Shown here in pieces: positions 31,742 through 38,616 of a DNA stretch of 48,311 nt. Both the position numbers and the translations under genes were made by a program. The number at the start of each line of letters is the position of its first letter. Position 1 is the first letter of the stretch. Origin of the DNA: Nitrospinota bacterium (lineage in GTDB: Bacteria; Nitrospinota; Nitrospinia; Nitrospinales; VA-1); assembly GCA_009873655.1 (NCBI GenBank), contig WAIB01000017.1, forward strand, positions 1-48,311. Reading direction: 5' to 3'. The notes under the pieces are model-generated. The model had not been told where the DNA came from, did not search any database, and worked only from the letters and a program-made list of their open reading frames with translations.

Positions 31742-33145
31742 ATGGAACCCAAAGACATTAAAAACATTTATCTTATAGCAATTTGTGGTACCGGAATGGC
31801 CGCGCTGGCTGGATTGCTTAAAAAATCGGGGTATGAGGTAACCGGGTCCGATGCAAATATTTATCCTCCCATGAGCACCCTGTTGAAGGATGCGGGAATC
31901 GAAATTTTTCCTGGATACAAAAAGGAAAATATTTCCAAGAATATCGACCTCGTCATTGTTGGTAATGCTGTTTCTAAAACCAATGAAGAAGTGCAGGCGG
32001 TTTTAGAAGCAGGTATCCCCTACACCTCTTTTCCCTCCGCCCTTTCCAGGTTCTTTCTGGAAGGCAGGAAATCCCTTGTGGTGACAGGCACCCATGGAAA
32101 GACCACAACGACCTCGTTATTGAGCTGGGTTCTTGAGTCGGCCCAAAGGAAGCCGGGGTTCATGGTTGGAGGTTGGTTGAAAAATTTTGATACCAATCAC
32201 CAGGTCCCCCGGGGTGAATATTTTGTAACGGAAGGAGATGAATATGACAGCGCATTTTTTGATAAGGGACCTAAATTCCTTCACTACAGGCCGGATGCCT
32301 CAATTTTGACGAGCATTGAATTCGATCACGCGGATATTTTCAGCGACCTGGACCAGATTAAAAAGGTTTTTCGAGATTATGTTGGGCTCATCAAGCCAGA
32401 AGGGGTTATTCTGGTTAAATCAGATGACCTGAATATTCGGGAAGTGATTGAATCGGCTTCATGCAAGGTAGAAACCTATGGGTTCCAAGAAGGGGCGGAT
32501 TGGCAGATTACAAGTTATCGATTTGAAAGTGGATTCGGCCATTTTTCTCTGTCACATAAAAATCAACACCGGGGTGATTTCCAATTGGCCATGATGGGTC
32601 GGCATAACGTGGAAAATGCGGCTGCCGTGGCGGGGCTTTGTTTCAGTCTGGGTTTGACCAAAGATGAAATTTATAAAGGGTTCCAAACCTTCAAGGGAAT
32701 TAAAAGAAGGCAGGAAATTGCAGGTGAGAAAAAGGGGATTGTCGTTATAGACGATTTTGCCCATCATCCCACCGCAATAGATTTAACCATTGATGCGGTT
32801 AAAAAGGCCTACCCCAATCAAAGGGTTTGGGCGGTTTTTGAACCCAGGTCGGCGACCTCGCGCAGAAAAGTGTTTGAGGAGGCCTTCCCGAAAAGCTTTT
32901 TAAAGGCCGATCGAGTTGTTTTTGCAGGATTGTTTGCACCTGAAAAGATAAAGGAAGAAGAACGTCTCAATGTGGAAGGCGTTACCGCCTCCATCCGGGA
33001 ATCAGGAGGAATAGCCGACTATATTCCCCAGGTAAATGATATAGTAGATTTTATAATCAAAAATTCAACCTCCGGCGATGTGATTCTCATTATGTCCTCC
33101 GGGGGTTTTGGTGGAATCCACCAAAAGATTTTAGAAGGGTTATAG
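31742..33145 (+). CDS. mpl: UDP-MurNAc:tripeptide ligase (murein peptide ligase)
   Basis: A 467-residue Mur-ligase-family enzyme that reattaches recycled L-Ala-gamma-D-Glu-meso-DAP to UDP-MurNAc. The Rossmann N-domain has ICGTGMAALAGLLK and VTGSDANIYPPMST, the latter (YPPMS) being the Mpl hallmark that separates it from MurC. The ATP loop is GTHGKTTT (116-123). The central domain has EGDEYDSAFFDKGPKF, again Mpl-type. The C-terminal domain has DDFAHHPTAI and EPRSATSRR. It opens a likely operon with the next genes. Confidence 0.95.
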   Translation: MEPKDIKNIYLIAICGTGMAALAGLLKKSGYEVTGSDANIYPPMSTLLKDAGIEIFPGYKKENISKNIDLVIVGNAVSKTNEEVQAVLEAGIPYTSFPSALSRFFLEGRKSLVVTGTHGKTTTTSLLSWVLESAQRKPGFMVGGWLKNFDTNHQVPRGEYFVTEGDEYDSAFFDKGPKFLHYRPDASILTSIEFDHADIFSDLDQIKKVFRDYVGLIKPEGVILVKSDDLNIREVIESASCKVETYGFQEGADWQITSYRFESGFGHFSLSHKNQHRGDFQLAMMGRHNVENAAAVAGLCFSLGLTKDEIYKGFQTFKGIKRRQEIAGEKKGIVVIDDFAHHPTAIDLTIDAVKKAYPNQRVWAVFEPRSATSRRKVFEEAFPKSFLKADRVVFAGLFAPEKIKEEERLNVEGVTASIRESGGIADYIPQVNDIVDFIIKNSTSGDVILIMSSGGFGGIHQKILEGL

Positions 33146-33168: not shown

Positions 33169-34296
33169 ATGGATAAAAAATATTTCGGACAAATAAAACT
33201 GGGGCTTATTCAAAGGGGCCTGACTATTCCCAACCTGGTGCAGGGGCTTGCGGAAGTTTCGCAGGGACTTTGCTCTGCAGAACCGGGCCAGGAGATAACC
33301 CTGGCCCTGGCCGAAGATTTCATAGTCAAGACCACACTGAATCCCACTGACAAAGAAGGCCCCAAACTGATATCCCGGCAGGACCGGTTACGGTTATTTA
33401 TGGAAGAGGGTGAAACGGATGTGAATATTATTCCTGTACCGGAATTCCTCAAGCAGCAGTTAAAAAAGCGCACCCCGGTTTCAGAAAATATTTGTCTCGA
33501 TGGTTATTGCTTTAATGTTTTTCTACGTGCGATCGGAAAGGGAAAAAAATTGAGCATGCCTGTCGAAGCCATCCTTTCCGTTATACAGGCGGCCTTCGAA
33601 GAAGGGGCCGCAGACCTGGTCCAATTGAATATGGATTACAGCAATGAAGATGACAGGGGTTTTCAGAGGCTGGCTCCATTGGTGGAAGCCATCAAAAAGC
33701 GGTTTAATACATTCGTAGCCTTGAAAGGGTTTCCACCATTGGATAAAAACACCATCGACCATGTTTATGCCTCCGGGTTCGATATTGTTAATTTTCCTCT
33801 CGGAGGATTTTATGGAACGGTTAAATCAAAAAAAATCATGGGTGCGGAAAAAATCTATGAGGCTTTGGAGTATGCATCGAGTGTTTTCTCCCCGGGAACC
33901 GTTTGGACCGACCTGATTATAAGCCCGGGGTCCCAGGACAGGTTTAAAGAGGGAATTAACCGTTTGACCGATTCGGGAATTATTCCGCTGATTCTTTTGC
34001 AACGAGATAGTAAAACGGAGACTCCCAGCTACCGGGACCTGGTAGAGCTGGCAGAGCAGATGGATCAGGCGGTTCAACGGAATAGCCTTCCTCTTAAATG
34101 GTTGTATCCTGCCTGCCGGTTTTTAAGTCCTCTGGACACCCGCTTTTTTACTGAAGACCCCTTGAAGGCAAGGTTGGCGGTGACGCCGGTTTATCGTTCC
34201 GGTCTTGGTAAAAGAACTTCTGCAGGATTCGCGGCGATACGGCGAAAACTTCGTATTCGCAATGTGAGTGATTCCTTTGAATCTGCCGGCTTATAA
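33169..34296 (+). CDS. Radical-SAM-like TIM-barrel protein without the CxxxCxxC cluster
   Basis: A 375-residue protein. The middle (about 125-290) has the alternating strand-helix pattern of a radical SAM barrel, with segments like VALKGFPPLDKNTIDHVYASGFDIVNFPL and LEYASSVFSPGTVWTDLIISPG, which resemble the second half of HmdB/biotin-synthase-type enzymes. Where the cluster loop should be there is only ICLDGYC (C109, C114), so a [4Fe-4S]-SAM site cannot form as usual. A C-terminal Arg-rich tail (GKRTSAGFAAIRRKLRIR) follows. It lies 23 bp after mpl and just before a true radical SAM gene. It may be a scaffold or partner; this is my inference from fold pattern only. Confidence 0.65.
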   Translation: MDKKYFGQIKLGLIQRGLTIPNLVQGLAEVSQGLCSAEPGQEITLALAEDFIVKTTLNPTDKEGPKLISRQDRLRLFMEEGETDVNIIPVPEFLKQQLKKRTPVSENICLDGYCFNVFLRAIGKGKKLSMPVEAILSVIQAAFEEGAADLVQLNMDYSNEDDRGFQRLAPLVEAIKKRFNTFVALKGFPPLDKNTIDHVYASGFDIVNFPLGGFYGTVKSKKIMGAEKIYEALEYASSVFSPGTVWTDLIISPGSQDRFKEGINRLTDSGIIPLILLQRDSKTETPSYRDLVELAEQMDQAVQRNSLPLKWLYPACRFLSPLDTRFFTEDPLKARLAVTPVYRSGLGKRTSAGFAAIRRKLRIRNVSDSFESAGL

Positions 34297-34401
34297 CTCA
34301 AAAGAAGATGAAAGGAAGGATGACTCAAGGCGACCAAACTTCAGATAATTGAAAGTCAGTTTTTGCTGGTGCAACAAAAGGCCCTTTGTTAGGCTGTGAA
34401 T

Positions 34402-35292
34402 ATGGATGATAAAGCGAAAACCCAGGAAAATATTCCGGAGGTCCCACTTAAAGAACTGGAAACTTTATGGCTCCAGGTGGGGGGTACGCTTTGCAACCTT
34501 GAGTGCACTCATTGTTTTATCAGTTGCGGGCCGAAAAATGACACCATTCCCATGATGACTCTCGCTCAGGTAAAAGAAAGGCTAAGGGAAGCAGGCGAAC
34601 TGGGAGTTAAGGATTACTATATTACAGGGGGTGAGGTTTTTATTAATCCGGAAATTTTTGAAATCCTGGAAGCGATTTTGAGTTATGGTCCGCTGGATGT
34701 GCTCACGAATGGAACCCAGATAACCCCGGAAAAAGCGAAAAGGCTTGGAGCCATTCAGGATGGCTCAAGACATCCTTTGCGGTTTAGGGTCAGCATGGAA
34801 CATTTTGAAGAATCCAAAAACGATCAAATCAGGGGTGAAAATTCTTACTGGAAGGCGATAGCGGGTATTGTCTGTCTTGCTGAAGCGGGATTTTCTCCCA
34901 TCCTGACGGTGACGCGAACCTGGGAAGAGGAACTTGATTTGGAAATGGAATCGCAGTTCATAGAATTTCTAAAGAGAAATGGAGTGGCGCAACCTCAGAT
35001 AAAAATTCTTCCCGGATTCCTGTTGGGCCAGTTAGCCGAAAATGAAAGAAATTATACACAAGAAGAATTTGTAACAGATAAATGTTTCGAAAATTTTGAT
35101 ATCACCCAATTACAATGTGCATCTTCGCGAATGGCAACGGGCGATGGAGTTTATGTCTGCCCGATTTTGGTGGACAACCCTGCTGCCCGTATGGGTAATA
35201 CCATCAGCCAGACGATGCGGCCGTTTCCTTTAGCCCATTCAGCTTGTTACACGTGCCGGGTTACCGGAATGACCTGCAAATCCACCCCTTAA
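34402..35292 (+). CDS. Radical SAM enzyme with C-terminal Cys-rich region
   Basis: I take ATG 34402 (296 residues), eight bases after AGG; a GTG two codons upstream is too close to it. The radical SAM loop is TLCNLECTHC (C31, C35, C38) with an additional Cys at 44, and the SAM-binding TGGEVF motif follows. The C-terminus has further cysteines (DKC, QCASS, YVCPI, ACYTC, MTCKS) in a SPASM-like arrangement able to hold one or two extra clusters. The substrate is unknown. No RiPP precursor is evident in the 105-bp gap upstream. A thioredoxin-fold gene starts 16 bp downstream. Confidence 0.88.
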   Translation: MDDKAKTQENIPEVPLKELETLWLQVGGTLCNLECTHCFISCGPKNDTIPMMTLAQVKERLREAGELGVKDYYITGGEVFINPEIFEILEAILSYGPLDVLTNGTQITPEKAKRLGAIQDGSRHPLRFRVSMEHFEESKNDQIRGENSYWKAIAGIVCLAEAGFSPILTVTRTWEEELDLEMESQFIEFLKRNGVAQPQIKILPGFLLGQLAENERNYTQEEFVTDKCFENFDITQLQCASSRMATGDGVYVCPILVDNPAARMGNTISQTMRPFPLAHSACYTCRVTGMTCKSTP

Positions 35293-35308
35293 ATCAGAAG
35301 GTAGAAAA

Positions 35309-35863
35309 ATGCCCTTATTACATTCCACGATGGTTCCATTGGGAACCAAGGCGATTGATTTCAGTTTGCCGGGGGTTGATGGAAGGGAATATTCCCTGGC
35401 CAGCTTTTCGAAGGATCCGGTACTGGTAATTATTTTCATGTGCAACCATTGCCCTTATGTAAAGGCAGTTATTCAACGCCTCATTGACCTGCAATCCGGG
35501 TTTTCAGGGCAGGGAGTCCGGCTGGTTGGCATCAACTGCAACGATGCGGAAAAATATCCCGACGATTCATTTGAAAATATGAAAAGCGGATCAAAGGAAT
35601 GGGGAATGAACTTTCCATATTTGTTCGATGAGTCCCAGGAGATTGCCAAAAAATATGACGCCGTTTGCACACCGGATATTTATGTTTATGGAGAAGAAAG
35701 AAAATTACTTTATCGCGGAAGAATCGATGATAACTGGGAAAAACCTGAACAGGTCACCCGGAGAGATTTAAAACAGGCAATCGACCATATTCTTGCAGGG
35801 AAAGACGTTCCGGGGGAGCAAATCCCATCCATGGGGTGCTCCATAAAGTGGAAAGTATCTTAG
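35309..35863 (+). CDS. Thioredoxin-fold (AhpC/TSA-like) redox protein
   Basis: A 184-residue redoxin. The active site is MCNHCPYV with C45 and C48, an atypical CNHC instead of the thioredoxin CGPC. The rest (LGTKAIDFSLPGVDGREYSL, VGINCNDAEKYPDDS, PYLFDESQEIAKKYDAVCTPDIYVY with cis-Pro, GRIDDNW) fits the common bacterial 'thioredoxin family protein' near peroxiredoxins. There is no signal peptide, so it is cytoplasmic. AGAAGG precedes the ATG. Its place between a radical SAM enzyme and UPF0182 hints that it might reduce the radical SAM product or a partner. Confidence 0.9.
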   Translation: MPLLHSTMVPLGTKAIDFSLPGVDGREYSLASFSKDPVLVIIFMCNHCPYVKAVIQRLIDLQSGFSGQGVRLVGINCNDAEKYPDDSFENMKSGSKEWGMNFPYLFDESQEIAKKYDAVCTPDIYVYGEERKLLYRGRIDDNWEKPEQVTRRDLKQAIDHILAGKDVPGEQIPSMGCSIKWKVS

Positions 35864-35871
35864 GATAATTT

Positions 35872-38616
35872 ATGGAAGCCTTTAAAAAATGGTTGTTCAT
35901 TCTTGCGGCGGTAATTTTTGTCGGCTCTATGTTTGCCGACAAAATCCTTTCTTTTTATATTGATTGGCTTTGGTTCAAGAACCACGGCATAGCTTCCGTA
36001 CTTTGGACCGTTTTGATCTCGCAATTCGGTTTGGGGTTCCTCGTTGGTGTTATATTTTTTACAGTTACATACGGTTTTCTGATAAGCGTTTACAGAAAAA
36101 CATCGCATCTTCCCATATTGCTGTCAGATCAGGTCCGGCGGGAAATTCCTTTATTGGACCTCCTTGCGGAAAACCTCAAGGTCCTCATTGTAGCGGCTCC
36201 TTTGGTTTTGGCGGTAATGACAGGCCTGGTAATGTCGCAACAATGGGAGATCGTCCTTCAATATCTCAATGCTTCCTCTTTTAATCAAGCCGACCCTGTT
36301 TTTGGTAAAGACGCAGGCTTCTATGTTTTTACCCTTCCCTTCTGGTTAATGGTTAAATCACTGGTCTGGGAAACCATGATCGTGATTTCCATTGGAGTGG
36401 GCCTGATTTATTTTTTCAAGCGTTTCGTTTATGTCAGTCCTACCGGAGTTGTTCTTCTCCCGGAAGCAAGAAGAACCCTTTCCGTATTGGCCGGATGTTT
36501 TTTTCTTCTTTTTGCCTGTGAATTTTATTTCCAACGCTATGAATTGTTAACCAGGGGAAACGAATTGATTTCAGGAATCGGATTTGCCGATGATTATGGC
36601 TCAATCCCTATTCTTTACATCTTGATCCTGGTTTCCCTGGTTGGGGCAGCGTTTTCTTTTTTTGGTCTCCTTCGTCCGGGAATGAAGAAAATTTTCCTAT
36701 CGGCAATTGCTTTAGCGCTGGTCTATTTTGCAGGAAATATTTATCCGAAGATACTGCAGAAATTTGTTGTCGCCCCAAATGAGCTGATTAAAGAAGCTCC
36801 TTATATAGAACGTACCATTTCCGGTACTTTAAGTGCTTATGGGTTGGGGAATACAAAAACCCACGGAATTTCAGGCTCCGAATCTTTAACCGCCGAAAAC
36901 ATAAGAAAGAACAACGCCACAATAGAAAATATTCGACTGTGGGACCAGGAACCCCTGTTAGACACACTTGGGCAGATTCAAGAAATACGCACCTACTACC
37001 AGTTTCAATCGGTTGATAACGACCGTTATCACATCAATGGAAAATATCGGCAGACTCTGTTGTCCCCCAGGGAGTTGTTGTCATCCAACCTGCCCAATCG
37101 AACCTGGATAAATGAACATCTGACTTTTACCCATGGTTACGGTGTTTCCCTGAGCCCTGTAAACCAGGTGAGCCCCGAGGGGTTGCCGGTATTATTCATT
37201 AAAGACATTCCTCCACAGTCCAATATGGATTTGAAGGTCAAGCAGCCGGAAATTTATTTTGGTGAGCTCGCAAATGACCATGTTTTTGTAAATACAGGAA
37301 CGAAGGAGTTCGATTATCCGGAGGGAGAAAAAAATGTTTATAAAAACTACGAAGGGAAGGGTGGGTTCCCCGTCGGGTCTTTTATTAAAAAGGTGATCCT
37401 GGCTGCACGGTTTAAAACTTTGAAAATTTTGTTTTCAGACGATATTGAAAACGAAAGCCGAGTCTTGATGTACCGGAATATAACCGAGCGGGTTCAGAAA
37501 GTCGCGCCTTTCCTCAAGTTGGACAATGACCCTTACCTCGTTATATCAGAAGGCCGTTTGATCTGGCTGTATGATGCCTATACGGTGAGCAACCGATATC
37601 CTTATTCCCAGCAAATTCCCCGATTCGGGAACTATGTCAGGAACTCGGTCAAAATTTCTATTGATGCATATGACGGGTCTATGAGTTTTTATATCGCCGA
37701 TCATTCCGACCCCATTATAAAAACGTATCAGAATATTTTTCCTGATCTTTTCAGGGATTTAGCTGAAATGCCGGAAGATTTGCGAAACCATATTCGCTAT
37801 CCCTCAGACTTGTTCAGGATACAGACTTTTATTTATGCGACGTACCATATGAAGCGTCCCCAGGTTTTTTACAATAAAGAAGACCAGTGGGAGATTCCTG
37901 AAATAGATGGTCGGATTATGGAGCCTTATTACACGATAATGAAGCTTCCCGGAGAGGTGAAGGAAGAATACATCTTGATGGTTCCCTACACACCAAGGGG
38001 TAAGAGCAATCTGTCAGCATGGATGGTGGCTCGAAGTGACGGGGAGAATTATGGGAAACTCGACGTTTATATGTTCCCGAAACAAAAGCTGGTCTATGGT
38101 CCCAGTCAAATTGTCGCGCGTATAAATCAAGACGCGGAAATTTCACGCCAGATTTCTTTGTGGGATCAACGCGGTTCAAGTGTTATTCAAGGGACCTTGC
38201 TCGTAATACCCATTGAAGAGTCTTTGGTTTATATCCGGCCTTTATATTTGAAGGCCGATGCAGGAAAAATTCCGGAGTTGAAAAGGGTCATCGTGGGATA
38301 TGAAGATAATATTGCCATGGAACGTACTCTGGATGGAGCCTTAAAGAAAATTTTCCCCGGCCTGTCGGGCATTTCTCCAAGCATTGCGGGACCCCCTGTG
38401 AGTACCCGTCCTGAGGTTTCCAAAAAAGAACAGAGAAACCTGATTTTTAGCAGGACTGATTATGACAAGATTCAAAAACTTTACAAAAAAGTTTTAGAGT
38501 CTCAAGACAAACTGGATCAGTCTTTAAATCAGTATAAAAATGAATTGAAAGCCCTGGGAGAGGTTTTGCAGGAAACCCCTGTCACCCTTGAACCATTAAA
38601 GCAAGCGGAAAATTAA
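35872..38616 (+). CDS. UPF0182-family large membrane protein
   Basis: A 914-residue protein of the UPF0182 (COG1615) family of unknown function. The N-terminal third has about seven transmembrane helices (WLFILAAVIFVGS, WTVLISQFGLGFLVGVIFF, and others), followed by a large soluble domain with family segments such as WDQEPLLDTLGQIQEIRTYYQF and HLTFTHGYGVSLSPVN. It ends with a coiled-coil stretch (KIQKLYKKVLESQDKLDQSL). AGGA lies upstream of the ATG, 8 bp after the thioredoxin-fold gene, so it belongs to the same transcript. Its stop lies 2 bp from the convergent purF stop. Confidence 0.92.
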   Translation: MEAFKKWLFILAAVIFVGSMFADKILSFYIDWLWFKNHGIASVLWTVLISQFGLGFLVGVIFFTVTYGFLISVYRKTSHLPILLSDQVRREIPLLDLLAENLKVLIVAAPLVLAVMTGLVMSQQWEIVLQYLNASSFNQADPVFGKDAGFYVFTLPFWLMVKSLVWETMIVISIGVGLIYFFKRFVYVSPTGVVLLPEARRTLSVLAGCFFLLFACEFYFQRYELLTRGNELISGIGFADDYGSIPILYILILVSLVGAAFSFFGLLRPGMKKIFLSAIALALVYFAGNIYPKILQKFVVAPNELIKEAPYIERTISGTLSAYGLGNTKTHGISGSESLTAENIRKNNATIENIRLWDQEPLLDTLGQIQEIRTYYQFQSVDNDRYHINGKYRQTLLSPRELLSSNLPNRTWINEHLTFTHGYGVSLSPVNQVSPEGLPVLFIKDIPPQSNMDLKVKQPEIYFGELANDHVFVNTGTKEFDYPEGEKNVYKNYEGKGGFPVGSFIKKVILAARFKTLKILFSDDIENESRVLMYRNITERVQKVAPFLKLDNDPYLVISEGRLIWLYDAYTVSNRYPYSQQIPRFGNYVRNSVKISIDAYDGSMSFYIADHSDPIIKTYQNIFPDLFRDLAEMPEDLRNHIRYPSDLFRIQTFIYATYHMKRPQVFYNKEDQWEIPEIDGRIMEPYYTIMKLPGEVKEEYILMVPYTPRGKSNLSAWMVARSDGENYGKLDVYMFPKQKLVYGPSQIVARINQDAEISRQISLWDQRGSSVIQGTLLVIPIEESLVYIRPLYLKADAGKIPELKRVIVGYEDNIAMERTLDGALKKIFPGLSGISPSIAGPPVSTRPEVSKKEQRNLIFSRTDYDKIQKLYKKVLESQDKLDQSLNQYKNELKALGEVLQETPVTLEPLKQAEN

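Follow-up and report, generated by a model that had tools for sequence, protein, structure and literature searches.

Background

The closest described relatives of the protein discussed here belong to the NCBIfam model NF045502 (variant_rSAM; also TIGR04043, MSMEG_0568 family radical S-adenosylmethionine (SAM) protein), a generic domain model, and its closest structural counterparts are lipoyl synthases and LipS2-type enzymes. As to gene arrangement, the nearest parallel is AmtB-GlnK, in which a soluble protein is encoded beside a nutrient permease across many lineages. Here we analyze PSAM, a pseudo-radical-SAM protein encoded in a stretch of 48,311 nucleotides (hereafter the window) of contig WAIB01000017.1 (assembly GCA_009873655.1) from a Nitrospinota bacterium of the order Nitrospinales, together with its neighbors mpl, RSAM, TRX and UPF0182 and with a permease of the DASS/SLC13 family encoded in the same window (Table 1). 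PSAM is very probably a non-catalytic descendant of a family of permease-linked radical SAM proteins. We also propose, tentatively, that it is a partner of the DASS anion permease; descent and partnership taken together make a possible reading, a little short of an even chance. We found no description of a DASS-linked family of radical SAM or pseudo-radical-SAM proteins in the open-access literature.

The comparison with the described systems reveals both similarities and differences (L and G numbers are our handles for loci and genomes). Intact DASS-linked relatives of PSAM share with NF045502 the N-terminal domain, the barrel layout and the SAM motifs, and their scores exceed its cut-off of 125 bits (L138: 201.6; L140: 166.2; L226: 185.6), whereas PSAM itself lacks the Cys motif and remains below the cut-off (E-value 1.5e-10, 40.6 bits), with a match confined to residues 126-298 (profile positions 164-351), i.e. 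to the barrel without the Cys motif. An LRRxLRV tail is particular to the DASS-linked group, and alignment revealed none in the non-tail relatives L147-L149 and L154. The intact relatives also match the LipS2 model NF053743 weakly. PSAM is unrelated to GlnK, and a regulation of DASS by PSAM is proposed here only as a possibility.

Results and discussion

Relatives of PSAM outside Nitrospinota

When 310 genomes from outside the phylum were searched with a first profile, made from 26 PSAM sequences, 15 of them had relatives (E-value <= 0.001). They form a mixed group, in which intact radical SAM proteins with a C-x8-C-x2-C motif occur beside proteins without the cysteines of this motif and a remnant of 175 amino acids (aa). 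In seven loci (L138-L144) the encoded protein has LRRxLRV or a closely similar sequence at its C-terminus, and a permease gene follows directly; all four of these permeases that were tested by Pfam turned out to be Na_sulph_symp, i.e. DASS/SLC13 proteins. The genes around them encode sulfite reductase, ThiS, PALP, JAB, ThiF, adenosine 5'-phosphosulfate kinase and 3'-phosphoadenosine 5'-phosphosulfate reductase, and in L138 also, as judged by eye, ATP sulfurylase. As a control, 13 loci (L145-L157) of variant_rSAM relatives without the tail gave no DASS match. All seven genomes with a profile-detected tail-bearing PSAM are among the 22 of the 310 that have DASS.

A wider profile around G245 matched 88 of 246 genomes, in 60 of which the neighboring genes were read; with the seven from the first search this gives 67 genomes (the neighbor count does not include the remaining 28 matched genomes; judged by rank, about 7 of these fall within the tail clade, and the others are weaker matches). 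In 65 of these 67 non-Nitrospinota genomes a DASS/SLC13 gene (Na_sulph_symp) lies directly downstream of the PSAM-family gene on the same strand, at a median distance of 18 nucleotides (nt); of the 47 gaps measured, 32 do not exceed 30 nt. One exception is G535, in which a cluster of the same type carries the gene with a CysK/ThiF group on one side and Sat on the other; in the second, G410, the contig stops about 1.4 kb past the gene and includes no DASS. Longer flanks were analyzed in 49 loci from 49 genomes, in which nine sulfur-cluster genes were scored and the genes of five loci were checked by Pfam. At least two of the nine are present in 42 of the 49 loci (CysH in 34, ThiF in 39, CysK in 36), DASS is present in 47, and matches to mpl, RSAM and UPF0182 are found in none and a match to TRX in one. 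A gene of the Usp family also occurs in 34 of these clusters, mostly right after DASS (e.g. L138, 11069-11530), and in L140 (7337-7941, + strand) a DsrE-like gene and a gene for a 103-aa protein without a known Pfam family stand between ThiF and the intact radical SAM gene.

The tail and the permease persist better than the active site. A C-x(6-11)-C-x2-C motif is kept in 57 of the 67 relatives and lost in 10, and an LRRxLRV-like tail is kept in 65; of the other two, G539 has a broken gene and G426 a variant tail sequence. Several relatives have a much shortened barrel (175-270 aa) with the tail retained; the smallest (175 aa; L143, 6788-7312, - strand), encoded directly 5' of DASS, has little left beyond the C-terminal tail. 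Since the tail and the DASS neighbor persist in several lineages whose barrel has become shorter or has lost its site, the retained job is suggested to be something other than radical chemistry.

A reciprocal test was made with 14 loci outside the order, chosen on a DASS match alone. In two of them a short tail protein is encoded directly 5' of DASS (L162, 263 aa; L171, 215 aa), ending in LRRHLRTSGAEASFESAGL and LFKLRRSLRVVQKFEE, the former tail being close to that of Nitrospinales; neither protein gave a Pfam or NCBIfam match at the thresholds applied.

PSAM as a pseudo-radical-SAM protein

PSAM matches no Pfam family at E-value <= 1, and a sequence search of the PDB with it returned nothing relevant. 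Neither CxxxCxxC nor a variant [4Fe-4S] triad is present in its sequence; alignment with the intact relatives revealed that the Cys loop is deleted and that two later SAM-contacting stretches (E...CPG and GLEP), which we take to be the SAM-binding motifs of the family, are both replaced. The AlphaFold2 (AF2) model, calculated from an alignment of 19 sequences (the window and 18 loci), is weak overall, with a mean predicted local distance difference test score of 53.7. The barrel core of this weak model (residues 103-313) nevertheless finds lipoyl synthases as its best structural matches (Z 14.3-13.4 over ~200 residues), which at 11-13% identity, and with the cluster ligands absent from PSAM, indicates a common fold only. 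Pyruvate formate-lyase activating enzyme, NifB and biotin synthase follow, and unrelated TIM barrels appear from about Z 9. The matches ranked 1-21 are all radical SAM enzymes as judged by title, if AbmM is counted as one, as we presume. Judged from the alignment and the predicted structure, PSAM is a true pseudo-radical-SAM barrel, of radical SAM ancestry and without the motifs of an active enzyme.

The sequence-only reading of this DNA had described four tightly spaced genes after mpl, encoding a radical-SAM-like barrel without CxxxCxxC, an intact radical SAM enzyme with extra cysteines, a redoxin with CNHC and a membrane protein of the UPF0182 family, and in this it was right: the open reading frames follow one another as it said, on the + strand and in the order mpl-PSAM-RSAM-TRX-UPF0182, and the assignments agree with the profile matches (Table 1). 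The intact enzyme, RSAM, matches PF04055 (Radical_SAM; E-value 7.8e-17, 62.4 bits, gathering score 29.5), contains CNLECTHC and has further cysteines in its C-terminal part; it scores below the curated cut-off of the Rv1681 family NF049973 (82.5 vs 380 bits). The score of the UPF0182 product is far above the PF03699 gathering score of 27. The possibility, raised in the same reading, that the PSAM fold might prove unrelated to radical SAM did not materialize, as profile, alignment and structure comparison all pointed to radical SAM.

The four open reading frames are not chance ones, since PSAM is present in 56 of 64 Nitrospinales genomes and evolves slowly. Its nonsynonymous divergence (dN) from three congeners is 0.076-0.087, vs 0.093-0.107 for mpl, and the ratio of dN to synonymous divergence (dS) is about 0.04-0.05 for the three pairs, which indicates purifying selection, with dS near saturation. 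A 57th match, in G002, was rejected as a different radical SAM protein without the tail. The 13 Nitrospinota genomes from outside the order have no PSAM, and one of them (G003) has a more distant DASS. In the family tree, rooted at the midpoint, the Nitrospinales proteins form one clade (support 100/99); as many forks are open and L143, L144 and L171 have long branches, the tree was used only for this monophyly. Residues 357-363 of the window protein read IRRKLRI, an LRRxLRV-like tail, and R358, R359, L361, R362, D368, S369, S372 and G374 are invariant in all 26 aligned Nitrospinales tails.

Table 1. Features of the window discussed in the text
Feature	Coordinates	Strand	Description
PSAM, pseudo-radical-SAM protein, 375 aa	33169..34296	+	N-terminal beta-rich domain, degenerate radical SAM barrel, conserved C-terminal tail
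DGYC, PSAM residues 111-114	33499..33510	+	Conserved in, and specific to, Nitrospinales; aligned with HGGY of the intact relative L138, which precedes the Cys loop that PSAM has lost
PSAM C-terminal tail IRRKLRIRNVSDSFESAGL	34237..34293	+	LRRxLRV common to relatives adjoining DASS permeases
DASS/SLC13 sodium-coupled anion permease, 484 aa	202..1656	-	Orthologous to the permease whose gene immediately follows the PSAM-family gene in other phyla
mpl (Mur ligase family)	31742..33145	+	Directly upstream of PSAM
RSAM, intact radical SAM protein, 298 aa	34396..35292	+	Contains CxxxCxxC and additional cysteines near the C-terminus
TRX, AhpC-TSA/redoxin family protein with CNHC, 184 aa	35309..35863	+	Pfam AhpC-TSA/Redoxin match
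UPF0182 membrane protein, 914 aa	35872..38616	+	PF03699, 943.2 bits

The DASS permease of Nitrospinales

The permease of the window scores above the cut-off of the DASS model TIGR00785 (206.7 vs 198.6 bits) and is 45% identical to the permease encoded beside the intact radical SAM gene of L138. PSAM and DASS are both present in all 28 Nitrospinales genomes that are at least 90% complete; among all 64, both were found in 50, PSAM only in 6, DASS only in 7 and neither in 1, and each of the 14 genomes with a miss is less than 90% complete. Both genes are thus order-wide, and therefore their joint presence counts as roughly one evolutionary event, not 50. CysH was rejected as a co-occurring partner: PF01507 is present in 71 of 77 Nitrospinota genomes and does not discriminate, because it occurs equally in PSAM-positive and PSAM-negative ones. 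The two PF01507 genes of the source genome are on contigs other than the window. A tree of the DASS permeases, with several long branches, did not usefully separate those adjacent to PSAM-family genes from the others. The DASS gene of the window is located between a radical SAM/SPASM gene (1874-2911, - strand) and the start of a rhodanese-like open reading frame (1-173, - strand; by eye) that is cut by the contig end; a similar open reading frame follows DASS in L172, L173, L174 and L177, and several Nitrospinales DASS loci look alike.

A number of observations weigh against a partnership of PSAM with DASS. In the window the two genes are 31 kb apart, so that PSAM does not stand directly upstream of DASS, and they are adjacent in none of the 48 Nitrospinales PSAM loci and none of the 6 DASS loci that were read, the constant neighbor of PSAM being mpl. 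PSAM was found in G007 and G008, which are 85-86% complete, but a DASS match at E-value <= 1e-50 was not. The family tree gives the Nitrospinales proteins no firm position among the DASS-linked ones: they group with some degenerate members of these at a support of 37/94, in a bootstrap analysis that had yet to settle. No tail protein was found in 12 of the 14 loci chosen on DASS, and DASS can therefore do without one; outside Nitrospinales the tail protein is nearly always found with DASS. Sulfate as the substrate of the window permease is suggested by gene neighbors in other genomes, and a published survey (PMC10839748) reports SulP permeases for the uptake of sulfate in many Nitrospinia. Finally, we rejected the tail as a membrane anchor, as the hydrophobic moments of eight tails are mostly no better than those of shuffled sequences. 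For the basic stretch, the share of shuffles with a moment as high was 0.011 in L171, borderline in L162 (0.059) and L144 (0.067) and 0.21-0.39 in L138, L140 and L143, and the high moments of the window and L139 tails are located on the acidic end instead of the basic stretch.

Alternative roles of PSAM

The relation to mpl suggests another role, in which PSAM would now be an accessory of Mpl in cell-wall recycling and the link to DASS would be only ancestral. The mpl gene is directly 5' of PSAM in all 48 Nitrospinales loci read (median gap 20 nt), which is the tightest junction that PSAM has, and the HAD phosphatase encoded upstream matches models of phosphoglycolate phosphatase and, more weakly, MupP. 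The adjacency of mpl and PSAM by itself says little, however, because other pairs nearby are equally frozen (lipo100-HAD neighbors in 35 of 35 loci, RSAM-TRX in 33 of 33), and the absence of mpl matches from the 49 longer-flank loci outside the phylum also speaks against this role, which we regard as unlikely.

It is similarly unlikely that the PSAM barrel has some other catalytic or ligand-binding activity, unrelated to either neighbor. Such an activity would agree with the conservation of barrel residues outside the lost motifs (Q152, P190, D197, Y200, G203, D205, P210, K310, W311 and D323) and with the new DGYC stretch, in which C114 is invariant, but the shrinkage of the barrel in several relatives that retain the tail argues against one active site common to the family.

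The sequence-only reading had gone on to suggest that an inactive barrel (PSAM) is paired with an active one (RSAM) and that the redoxin could recycle cysteines, a model in which UPF0182 would be the membrane partner; the gene order in much of Nitrospinales agrees with this (PSAM-RSAM neighbors in 35 of the 38 loci with both genes, RSAM-TRX as given above, TRX-UPF0182 in 29 of 29), but the PSAM-RSAM joint breaks, with five genomes (G007, G008, G009, G028, G058) having PSAM and no RSAM orthologue and three (G004, G005, G027) having the RSAM-TRX-UPF0182 unit on a contig other than that of PSAM, and no linkage of the two families is seen outside the phylum, which makes this pair very improbable. 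Thus, of the linkage that had been expected, the conservation and co-linearity of the genes in much of the order were borne out, and the tie between PSAM and RSAM was not.

The four genes are in fact two neighboring units, because the PSAM-RSAM joint breaks while RSAM-TRX and TRX-UPF0182 hold: PSAM and RSAM-TRX-UPF0182 merely adjoin, and the latter has moved or been lost independently of PSAM. RSAM is missing from 10 of the 48 PSAM loci, in 8 of which at least 2.5 kb of downstream sequence is available, the other 2 being near contig ends. The unit adjoins purF in the window, in G005 and G027 and, as TRX-UPF0182, in G009. As a unit of its own, RSAM-TRX-UPF0182 presumably has a job different from that of PSAM. 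Its parts also part company: UPF0182 is absent from all 8 genomes of genus g16 (G014-G021), in 7 of which RSAM was found, and present in g12 and g13, both without RSAM. Outside the phylum, RSAM orthologues occur in 5 of 291 genomes, all without a tail-bearing PSAM, and TRX or UPF0182 is beside none of the five. In L178, L179 and L181 the RSAM orthologues adjoin a protein of ~258 aa that by eye resembles a metallophosphoesterase.

A possible route from radical SAM enzyme to permease partner

The descent of PSAM and its tentative partnership with DASS could be connected as follows. The ancestral radical SAM gene was very probably located immediately upstream of a DASS/SLC13 permease gene inside sulfate-assimilation clusters. 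The PSAM lineage lost the [4Fe-4S] and SAM-binding motifs and kept the tail, and in Nitrospinales the gene is located in an mpl operon, away from the permease. PSAM may serve the DASS permease of the window as a soluble partner or regulator, and hence influence the uptake of sulfate-type anions, with the C-terminal tail as a putative docking element on the permease.

We further speculate, by analogy with GlnK on AmtB, that the ancestral permease-linked radical SAM protein was a sensor of sulfur status rather than primarily an enzyme, with SAM bound on the [4Fe-4S] barrel and the tail docking on DASS, and that PSAM and the shrunken forms kept the tail and dropped the sensing of SAM. This would be a novel type of transporter regulation; we consider it rather improbable. 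A role of PSAM itself as a SAM sensor in Nitrospinales was rejected, as its SAM motifs are gone, and the idea is retained for the intact relatives only.

Conclusion

If the proposed partnership is true, many bacteria would have an overlooked gene of sulfate assimilation, encoding a radical SAM protein beside a sulfate-type permease, whose active site was repeatedly lost. The family would offer a natural series from enzyme through pseudoenzyme to a remnant with little more than a tail, and a protein without a specific Pfam or NCBIfam name would gain a testable role. In Nitrospinales, which include marine nitrite oxidizers, a protein found throughout the order would be tied to anion uptake.

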